Source: Ordospora colligata OC4
Lineage: Eukaryota; Microsporidia; Ordosporidae
Reading direction: 5' to 3'
Assembly: GCF_000803265.1 (NCBI RefSeq)
Contig: NW_014575404.1
Location: 186,001-250,000, forward strand
Length of the DNA stretch: 64,000 bases
Below, piece after piece: positions 1,784 to 41,797 of the stretch. Positions within the stretch are counted from its first letter, which is position 1, and every line of letters begins with the position of its first letter. The position numbers and the translations under genes were made by a program. The notes beneath the pieces were generated by a model that was given only the letters and a program-made list of their open reading frames with translations, was not told the origin of the DNA and did not search any database.

Positions 1784-2179
1784 ATGCGATTGAAAGCTGG
1801 AAAGAAGGAAAAGAAAGTGAAGTTTATTGATTCTACAAATGAGATAATAAAGCACATGAATACGTCTGAGAATGGAAAGCGATCAAGGCTCAGACTGAAT
1901 GCACAGCAAGCAAGTATTCTGGAGCAAAGCTTCAAGAATGGTAGTCACCCAAGTAATAAAGTCAAAGCAGAGCTGGCGATGGTTTTATGTATTCCTTTGA
2001 AGAATGTGCAGATTTGGTTCCAAAACAGACGAGCGAAGGAGAAAATTGGAGTAGGAGCAATGAAAGTAGTAGATGGAGAGGAAACAGAGATGATGAGATT
2101 TGATGAGAGGGCAGAATACCAGACTACGTGCTCAATTGATTTTCCTGTTGATGAGAAGTATTTTTCTGAGTACTATTAA
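1784..2179 (+). CDS. homeodomain transcription factor
   Basis: A small protein of 131 residues with one homeodomain at about residues 31-88. The third helix carries the diagnostic VQIWFQNRRAKEK (W78, N81, R83), and helix 1 has LNAQQASILEQSF. Known homeodomains bind TAAT-type sites, so a nuclear sequence-specific DNA-binding role is expected. The N-terminal arm is Lys-rich; the 40-residue tail is acidic and ends in SEYY. A GGG 17 bp upstream (atgggctgtgattagagaATG) supports the first ATG; a second possible start is the Met at residue 25. Microsporidian genomes carry a small set of homeobox genes; I cannot tell which one this is or whether it is related to mating-type loci. Confidence 0.9.
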   Translation: MRLKAGKKEKKVKFIDSTNEIIKHMNTSENGKRSRLRLNAQQASILEQSFKNGSHPSNKVKAELAMVLCIPLKNVQIWFQNRRAKEKIGVGAMKVVDGEETEMMRFDERAEYQTTCSIDFPVDEKYFSEYY

Positions 2180-39907: not shown

Positions 39908-40198
39908 TCATGCTGCTGCAACAGTCTCATGTGCAGGAATGCTCTCCTCGGTAAAAACCAGTTCTCCCCTGAGCTTCTCCTCTCCAAGAGGTGTCAAGAA
40001 GAAATACGAGTGTCTCCACACATATATCTTCTCAACATATCCGTAAGAAACCATTGTCTTCATAAATATTTTCATGTGCAAGTTTGAAATGCCAAGCGTC
40101 TTGTGCTCACCAAGAACCGTGTCCTCAACCAGCAGTGCCTTCTTTTCCAACAGCTGTCTCTTGATCTTATACTTGTCTTTTGTAGGAACCAAAGCCAT
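39908..40198 (-). CDS. RPS10: 40S ribosomal protein eS10
   Basis: Small-subunit head protein of 96 residues. KDKYKIKRQLLEKKALLVED matches the KxxRxAIYEyLFKEGVxVAKKD start, and NLHMKIFMKTMVSYGYVEKIYVWRHSYFFLTPLG (read in parts) matches the NLxVxxAMQSLxSRGYVxExFxWRHxYWYLTxEG core. The animal and fungal C-terminal tail is absent and replaced by a short AHETVAAA. Directly upstream of the ATG is a 33-nt intron-like element (described separately); after its removal the G6 start signal would be 7 nt from the ATG, as at unspliced genes. Confidence 0.93.
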   Translation of the reverse strand: MALVPTKDKYKIKRQLLEKKALLVEDTVLGEHKTLGISNLHMKIFMKTMVSYGYVEKIYVWRHSYFFLTPLGEEKLRGELVFTEESIPAHETVAAA

Positions 40199-40231
40199 CT
40201 AAAATTATACATGTTACAGTCGATCACTTAC
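40199..40231 (-). other. 33-nt spliceosomal intron in the eS10 5' leader
   Basis: On the minus strand this stretch starts GTAAGT and ends TAATTTTAG directly against the eS10 ATG. The last nine bases are identical to those of the intron in the neighbouring gene at 40373-40395. No ATG lies between the G6 run and the intron, so the intron would be in the leader. Removing it places the G6 run (40239-40244) 7 nt before the ATG; unspliced it would be 40 nt away. Confidence 0.72.
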
Positions 40232-40238
40232 TTTTTCA

Positions 40239-40244
40239 CCCCCC
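40239..40244 (-). promoter_or_regulatory. G6 start-site signal of eS10, interrupted by intron
   Basis: Six G residues (minus strand) mark the start region of eS10. Distance to the ATG is 40 nt in genomic DNA and 7 nt after removal of the proposed 33-nt intron. If transcription begins at or near such runs, the leader would be only about 10-15 nt long after splicing. Confidence 0.6.
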
Positions 40245-40297
40245 TGCACAATTTTTTATTTGTTTGTTTGCGTGAATAAGGTCCTGTAGCCGTCCCC

Positions 40298-40611
40298 ATG
40301 GGATATGCAAGTATTATGCTTGTGGTGTCTACAGCAGCATATGCTTTTATTGTTTATGCACTGGCTATAAAGGTAAGTTATTATTGTAATTTTAGCCACT
40401 TATTGCTGAACCTGATATCACAGAAAGCTTTTTGATTATTTTTTCATCGGTAATTGTTTTCGTTATACTTATGACTCACATAATGTTAGGACAGCATGGT
40501 AAAGAAAGGAATGATGACACAACAGTGAATGGCAGGAAGTGTAGAATAGAAAATCATCATACAGTAAGCAAATACTGTAAATGCAGCAATAAATGTTGTA
40601 AAGTACAATAA
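40298..40611 (+). CDS. DPM2: spliced two-helix membrane protein, DPM2-like
   Basis: Two exons, 40298-40372 and 40396-40611, encode 96 residues. Exon 1 begins MGYASIMLVVSTAAYAF; unspliced translation stops soon after the intron, while splicing opens a frame with a second hydrophobic helix. The order helix 1 (about 5-24), KPLIAEPDITES, helix 2 (about 37-54), then HIMLG is that of DPM2 (TM1, LPFID..., TM2, SYVML), the small ER subunit that anchors and regulates DPM1. The tail of about 40 residues is Cys/Lys/Asn-rich and is not expected for DPM2. CCCC sits directly before the ATG (gtccccATG). DPM1 of this genome lacks its own membrane anchor. PIG-P or an OST/V-ATPase accessory subunit are alternatives. 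Confidence 0.58.
40373..40395 (+). other. 23-nt spliceosomal intron
   Basis: GTAAGT at the left end, TAG at the right, with TGTAATTTTAG as a combined branch and 3' splice region, giving 23 nt in total. It falls between codons 25 and 26 (phase 0), and its length is not a multiple of three, so retention shifts the frame and truncates the protein about 12 codons later. Introns this short are known from microsporidia. Confidence 0.78.
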
Positions 40612-40753: not shown

Positions 40754-41797
40754 ATGAATCTGTCGAGAGTGTTAGTCCAAAGGCTTATTGGAAGTCAAAG
40801 TGCGATCTTTAGAGCGATATATATGGAGAAGAGAATGAGTAAGGCACAACTGAAGGATGTTTGTATATCTTCTGTAGTTGCTGTCGTTATGAATGAAGAA
40901 GTGCCTGTTGATATTGGAGGTCTTGTTATTGCTGGGTTGAGCAAGATTTTGTCAAGAAAGTTAAAGTATTTATCAGAAGAGTGTGGAGGAATGGTACATG
41001 TGATGTGTGAAGGATCTGCAGAGAAGGTGAAAAAAATAGGCCAGGGAGTGGTTAAGGAAATAACTCTGGGAATGGAAGGACTGTATATTGACGACGATAT
41101 GATTGATCCTGAGGAGTTTATTGTTCTTGAGGAGCCTGAGGAGGATATGGGAATAAGCATTGATGATATGAGTTTTGGAGCAAATATGAGTGGAATTTCA
41201 CTTGCTGAGCAGATTAGAGATGACTATGACGATGGATCTATGGGAAGGAGTGCAACTGAGGTGACTCAGATTCCGATTGAAGAGTACAGGGAGAAGAGAA
41301 GAAGGATAGTCGATGATGGCGAGACTGAGTATGATGCACAAATGTTCAGAGAGAATCTGCGTGATACAAGAGATATTGTATGTATGAAGAGAATTGATTT
41401 TATGGATGTGATGCGATCAAGGCTGTTTGTTGCACCTGAGATTCTGTGTAGGATCAGAGATGAAAGCATGATGCGTAGAGAGAGTGTTGAGGGAGTGCGT
41501 GATGAGATGTTAATGGATTCATATATGGACATTAGCTTTAGAAATGAAATAGAAACTGATAATGAGCATAATGAAGTTGATAGTGAAAACGATAGTGAAA
41601 ATGAAGAGAATGGAACGAAGATGTATTTTGAGATTGGAGAGCTGGGAAAGAGTTTCAGTTTTAACAGTGCGGTTGGAAACAAGAGTAGATATGAAAGAAG
41701 CAAATCTTTTTTTTGTCTTTTGAGTTTACTTGGGCAGGGTAAAGTGATTGCTAACCAGACAGTGCCGTATGACGTGATTAAATGTGAATTGTGTTAA
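40754..41797 (+). CDS. SCC1: cohesin kleisin subunit (Rad21/Rec8 type)
   Basis: The kleisin closes the cohesin ring by bridging Smc1 and Smc3. The N-terminal Rad21/Rec8 domain shows SAIFRAIYMEKRMSKAQL, then DIGGLVIAGLSKILSRKLKYLSEEC, matching the GPLAKIWLAAHWxKKLTK...SGxLLLGVVRIYSRKxxYLLxDC pattern. The C-terminal winged helix shows RYERSKSFFCLLSLLGQGKVIANQ. At 347 residues it is about 60% of yeast Scc1; the linker is acidic and shortened. Separase sites cannot be assigned with confidence. It could be the meiotic Rec8 or a single kleisin doing both jobs; SPO11 is also present in this window. GGG sits directly before the ATG (acagggATG). Confidence 0.85.
   Translation: MNLSRVLVQRLIGSQSAIFRAIYMEKRMSKAQLKDVCISSVVAVVMNEEVPVDIGGLVIAGLSKILSRKLKYLSEECGGMVHVMCEGSAEKVKKIGQGVVKEITLGMEGLYIDDDMIDPEEFIVLEEPEEDMGISIDDMSFGANMSGISLAEQIRDDYDDGSMGRSATEVTQIPIEEYREKRRRIVDDGETEYDAQMFRENLRDTRDIVCMKRIDFMDVMRSRLFVAPEILCRIRDESMMRRESVEGVRDEMLMDSYMDISFRNEIETDNEHNEVDSENDSENEENGTKMYFEIGELGKSFSFNSAVGNKSRYERSKSFFCLLSLLGQGKVIANQTVPYDVIKCELC

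Follow-up and report, generated by a model that had tools for sequence, protein, structure and literature searches.

A probable intron in the 5' leader of the eS10 gene of Ordospora colligata, placed like the run-proximal introns of other genes

The analysed window is a stretch of 64,000 nt from the microsporidian Ordospora colligata OC4, a highly reduced parasite related to fungi (contig NW_014575404.1, positions 186,001 to 250,000), which corresponds to C4:186001-250000 of the searched genome. It contains the gene for 40S ribosomal protein S10 (eS10) on the minus strand, head to head with a divergent neighbour. The features of the locus are listed below in window coordinates.

39908..40198, minus strand: coding sequence of eS10, 96 aa plus stop, Pfam PF03501
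40199..40231, minus strand: putative leader intron of 33 nt, GTAAGTGA...TAATTTTAG, adjoining the eS10 ATG
40199..40207, minus strand: branch-like motif and 3' splice site TAATTTTAG, with TAAYT placed as in the other tabulated introns
40232..40238, minus strand: putative exon 1 of 7 nt, TGAAAAA, without AUG, directly 3' of the G run
40239..40244, minus strand: run of six G (G6), corresponding to the microsporidian CCC start signal in its GGG form
40249..40257, minus strand: AAAAAATTG, resembling the AAATTT-like signal of ribosomal protein genes, an inexact match to AAATTT
40072..40212, minus strand: frame of 46 codons, starting at an intronic AUG and open only upon intron retention
40298-40372 and 40396-40611, plus strand: exons of the divergent neighbour gene, separated by a 23-nt intron (40373-40395)

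The eS10 product matched S10_plectin in Pfam (E=7.2e-17). It shared 93% identity with a protein of Ordospora pajunii and 65-75% with six other microsporidian entries. A preliminary description of this DNA had placed a 33-nt GTAAGT element directly against the eS10 ATG, and re-reading of the coordinates confirmed this: the complete intron sequence, from 40231 to 40199, is GTAAGTGATCGACTGTAACATGTATAATTTTAG, and the ATG lies at 40198. Its spacing of G6 to ATG, 40 nt before splicing and 7 nt after, was reproduced as well, as was the lack of an ATG in the would-be exon 1. An additional feature, absent from that description, is an AUG at 40212, within the intron and in another frame than eS10.

Read directly on the minus strand, the start-signal block upstream of eS10 is AAAAAATTG-TGCA-GGGGGG. 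Microsporidian ribosomal protein genes have an AAATTT-like signal followed by CCC, more rarely GGG, directly before the start, and leaders mapped by RACE in Encephalitozoon cuniculi were shorter than 7 nt, as reported in PMC2803860. In eS10, the intron comes after both of these signals.

After removal of its intron, the divergent neighbour encodes a protein that is 99% identical, from end to end, to O. colligata CWI42_041820, and the 96 aa of this product equal the published length of the O. colligata protein exactly. The intron of the neighbour has the same consensus as that of eS10, on the opposite strand and 141 bp away. The first half of the neighbour protein is hydrophobic. A promoter region of ~50 bp is common to these two intron genes. 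Elsewhere in the window, we found a 347-aa ORF (40754-41797, plus strand) with a weak match to the Rad21/Rec8 N-terminus (E=8e-5, just above the curated cut-off), and a homeodomain protein of 131 aa (1784-2179, plus strand; Pfam E=1.1e-16).

A C/G run 0-20 nt before the ATG had been described as the normal arrangement in this window. This held as a tendency, but not as a strict rule. Among 52 window ORFs, chosen mechanically, 29 had CCC or GGG within 20 nt of the first ATG, compared with 91 of 577 internal in-frame ATGs. When any in-frame ATG among the first 60 codons was allowed, 36/52 had a run at most 10 nt away, a figure that is inflated because several ATGs were tried per gene.

Chance expectation was estimated with 300 dinucleotide shuffles of the window. 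The intron consensus (GTAAGT...TAAYTT..AG) appeared on average 0.13 times per shuffled window and twice in the real one, in eS10 and in its neighbour. When a C/G run 4-11 nt upstream was added to the pattern, the shuffle mean was 0.017, and the only observed site was eS10, counted four times because of its G6. For the consensus directly before an ATG, the mean was 0.007, with one observed case. The run 4-11 nt before GTAAGT alone gave 7 counts at three sites (15260, 40231 and 42841), which is unremarkable given a shuffle mean of 2.0 (maximum 9). A chance match as the source of the eS10 element was rejected on the basis of the shuffles and the run distance.

Introns in the genome (2.28 Mb, 13 contigs) were identified by pattern searches of all contigs and splice-and-translate tests, which gave a consistent set. 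In 11 other genes, a C run was followed by an intron after 7-11 nt (mean 8.5, SD 1.2), the distance in eS10 being 7 nt. The distance from the run to the 5' splice site and the sequence of exon 1 were as follows.

eS1: 7 nt, exon 1 TAGAATG
eS17: 7 nt, exon 1 AAGAATG
eS8: 8 nt, exon 1 TGAAATGG
SEC61: 8 nt, exon 1 AATGTCAT
eS30: 9 nt, exon 1 TTTGAAATG
uL18: 9 nt, exon 1 TGCAAAATG
eL43: 9 nt, exon 1 ATGGAAATG
eL6: 9 nt, exon 1 TCAAAAATG
eL37: 9 nt, exon 1 AAAGAAATG
eL19: 7 nt, exon 1 TGAAAAT
membrane-protein gene: 11 nt, exon 1 AAAAATGAATG

Comparison of the run distances and exon 1 sequences placed the eS10 intron as in these genes, with an exon 1 that lacks an AUG. Pfam supported 10 of the 11 genes, nine of them through N-terminal fragments; the N-terminal fragment of eL6 had no match, and its whole product did. 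The product of the membrane-protein gene had no Pfam match. This membrane-protein-like gene, of 151 aa, had two tiny introns, of 25 and 23 nt (L050, C9:104799-104823; L012, C9:105104-105126). In all 11 genes, translation from the first AUG downstream of the run would end after 1-42 codons with the intron retained and extend over 60-474 codons once it was spliced.

The 5' splice site GTAAGTGA was shared by eS10 and eight of the other 11 run-proximal introns, the remaining three beginning with GTAAGTCG, GTAAGTGG and GTAAGTTA. The eS10 intron has GT-AG ends, and its 33 nt fall inside the published microsporidian range of 22-76 nt given in PMC3629993. All 16 tabulated introns, eS10 included, contained the motif TAAYT, the second A of which lay 6-7 nt from the 3' end of the intron. 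After splicing, the run would lie 7 nt before the ATG in eS10 and 0-6 nt before it in the 11 other intron genes. The pattern GTA[AG]GT...TAATT..AG, used in PMC3486916 to search for introns of Trachipleistophora hominis after comparison with E. cuniculi and Nosema ceranae, fitted eS10 and 10 of 12 others tested, the exceptions being eS30 and eL43. The 5' splice site, branch and 3' end, length and run distance of the proposed leader intron all match the introns of this genome, from which we infer the splicing itself.

In the 11 genes, the position of the 5' splice site scattered less when measured from the run (SD 1.2) than from the AUG (SD 2.3, or 1.7 when the second ATG of eL43 was used). The smaller SD is a weak hint that the 5' splice site may be set from the transcript start.

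Genome-wide, GTAAGT...TTTTAG had 17 matches, compared with 105 for a backward control, which reads the pattern reversed and differs from it in composition. Five of 14 loci examined from this and other pattern searches (L002, L006, L008, L010 and L013) were classed as non-introns, partly by eye, with open unspliced frames or no spanning frame. The pattern GTAAGTN{4,34}TAAYTTN{0,3}AG had 24 matches, and its backward control 46; raw match counts are therefore weak evidence, and the case is made by position and frame. Fifteen of the 24 were introns found earlier, including eS10 and its neighbour, and one (C12:108709) was a false match in an open frame. Among the eight new ones, five gained frame upon splicing (L016, L108-L111), two were ambiguous (L112, L113) and one was uL5. 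The eS17 intron lies outside this pattern.

With a run close before GTAAGTGA, 9 of 12 loci were introns, eS10 among them, and L027, L036 and L039 were judged non-introns. Three further loci comprised two introns (L049, L050) and one rejected candidate (L046). GGG 4-11 nt before GTAAGT occurred in 36 rows, of which 26 were covered: eS10, 14 inspected by eye over 1.8 kb each, none of them convincing, and 11 as short fragments, most of which stopped before a 3' splice site could be judged. Among CCC-before-GTAAGT rows, 14 of 15 new places were evaluated, with one intron, that of eL19.

Leader introns were sought through splice patterns abutting an ATG. GTAAGT...TAGATG had 16 matches genome-wide, and only eS10 was convincing as a leader intron. 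The other 15 were rejected: in 14, the frame opened by the ATG extended for at most 33 codons, and in one (L056), CCCC stood just before the ATG. GTAA...TAATT..AGATG had six matches, of which only eS10 and uL5 (RPL11) were at gene starts; the other four lay inside open frames.

The candidate leader intron of uL5 (C2:36201-36227; locus L107, C2:36071-36357) abuts the ATG and begins GTAAGTTG. The 5' region reads AAAAAATTTGA CCCC GGTACAATATTTAAGAAG [GTAAGTTGAAGGCCTGAGTAATTTAAG] ATGAATCCAATG, and the intron lies 18 nt from the run, farther than the remaining introns. Neither exon 1 nor the intron of uL5 contains an ATG. Translated in frame, exon 1 gives T-I-F-K-K, and the earliest Met follows immediately after the intron. 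The uL5 proteins of E. cuniculi and E. hellem start with MSSKKINPM and MSSKKTNPM, and those of two further relatives with MNPM. In E. cuniculi uL5, the signal was reported three nt before an ATG, with the start marked as mispredicted there (PMC2803860). In uL5, it looks as if an upstream start codon was lost and a new start arose behind the intron. As a candidate second leader intron, uL5 is a weaker case than eS10, in view of its distance from the run, the effect of its retention and the signal near an ATG in E. cuniculi. Retention of the uL5 intron adds no AUG, so that a block upon retention is not general to leader introns. For eS10, all six non-Ordospora homologue entries start with M-L-[VI]-[PS]-T. 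Relocation of its start across the intron is not supported, because the ATG of these relatives is contiguous with the body of the protein, assuming that the genes were called unspliced.

The intron of eL19 (26 nt, C7:10125-10150, L075) splits the start codon between AT and G, and the unspliced RNA reads AUG UAA at this point. An AUG split by an intron in eL19 is known from other microsporidia (PMC2685015, Figure 1 legend). The eS10 intron resembles it in its place after the run and in its exon 1 (TGAAAAA, against TGAAAAT in eL19), and in both genes a translatable AUG would be formed or placed by splicing only. They differ in that eL19 joins AT to G, whereas eS10 has a complete AUG in exon 2.

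In its strict donor and branch motifs, its position at the 5' end of the gene and its length, the eS10 intron is like the 5'-proximal introns of 22-76 nt described for ribosomal protein genes of E. cuniculi and N. ceranae (PMC3629993, PMC2685015). Unlike the 5'-proximal introns described there, it lies wholly before the AUG. An intron in so short a leader had been called unusual in the preliminary description. This stands for the position of the AUG behind the intron; the run-proximal placement itself is shared with 11 other genes, and uL5 is a candidate second case of a leader intron. A literature search, which covered part of the microsporidian intron surveys, found no microsporidian leader intron. 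Ribosomal protein genes of yeast also have introns in the 5' UTR; these are hundreds of nt long and lie in longer leaders, in an organism with a fuller spliceosome.

We consider the eS10 element to be a spliceosomal intron located wholly in the 5' leader, with transcription from the G6 run and with retention blocking eS10, at a probability of about 0.83. The intron is probably real, a variant of the known run-proximal introns of microsporidia, as judged from its sequence and position. With transcription starting at or just after G6, exon 1 would be ~7 nt long and would lack an AUG. The spliceosome would then connect this exon directly to the ATG, bringing the AUG to ~7 nt from the 5' end, and the resulting leader would be of the very short type reported for microsporidia. 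If the intron were retained, a scanning ribosome would first meet the intronic AUG, after intron nt 19, and would read the 46-codon frame past the eS10 start, so that no eS10 would be made. This frame, which differs from that of eS10, extends from the AUG at 40212 to 40072 and covers the eS10 start, and splicing is for this reason probably needed for eS10.

Quite unlikely, in our view, is that the element stays unspliced, with transcription starting within the 33 nt to give a short leader directly and the splice-like sequence being due to chance or to a decayed intron. A start inside the element could also produce leaders of the length found by RACE in E. cuniculi, where a predicted intron of one ribosomal gene was unspliced by the same method (PMC2803860). 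However, 40199-40238 contains no CCC or GGG, compared with 29/52 window ORFs that have one within 20 nt, the whole arrangement is expected by chance only ~0.007-0.017 times per window, and the 5' splice site is at the run distance of 11 other intron genes. Far less probable still is that G6 is the C6 of the divergent neighbour's promoter and that eS10 uses another start signal. The genes are indeed head to head, with 53 nt from the run to the neighbour ATG, but a CCCC at 40294-40297 immediately precedes the neighbour's own ATG, and assignment of the run to the neighbour was rejected on this ground. Moreover, no other run is nearer to eS10, and the AAATTT-like signal and G6, read on the strand of eS10, have the same order as reported for ribosomal genes.

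The chances are about even that the leader intron is real but has no regulatory role, being a constitutively spliced relic that persists because the AUG stands, or came to stand, behind a fixed intron. This is compatible with the blocking leader intron favoured above, and the odds of the two overlap. The resemblance of uL5 to a relocated start codon and the intron-split AUG of eL19 are in line with a relic, as is the low average splicing across E. cuniculi introns (PMC3629993). Against it, the out-of-frame AUG in the intron means that removal matters for the eS10 protein. Also, all six non-Ordospora eS10 entries begin M-L-[VI], with a contiguous ATG if, as assumed, they were called unspliced.

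Returning to the leader intron whose retention would block eS10, the visible cause, if splicing gates translation, is the intronic out-of-frame AUG, and not spacing alone. According to PMC3629993, fewer than 50% of transcripts were spliced at 30 of 37 introns of E. cuniculi, its intron-containing genes had short leaders only, and splicing was apparently confined to the intracellular stage. The intronic AUG, together with such low and stage-limited splicing, means that eS10 could be gated by splicing. Since E. cuniculi introns are mostly poorly spliced, splicing of eS10 could be inefficient without being regulated. We infer from the sequence that regulation of eS10 by splicing may occur.

More tentatively, and with the odds clearly against it, first introns might have their 5' splice site placed 7-11 nt past the C/G run by its distance from the start of the transcript, and not by the coding sequence. 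The AUG would then be free to precede the intron, to be split by it or to follow it, and splicing of eS10 would act as an on/off gate: mRNA that keeps the intron would be read from the out-of-frame AUG, and eS10 synthesis would be limited to the stage in which splicing takes place. Genes whose AUG precedes, is split by or follows the intron form a natural series for asking whether the splice site is positioned relative to the cap. For annotation, leader introns would escape intron searches confined to coding sequences, and eS10 reads that retain the intron may represent mRNA that is not translatable.
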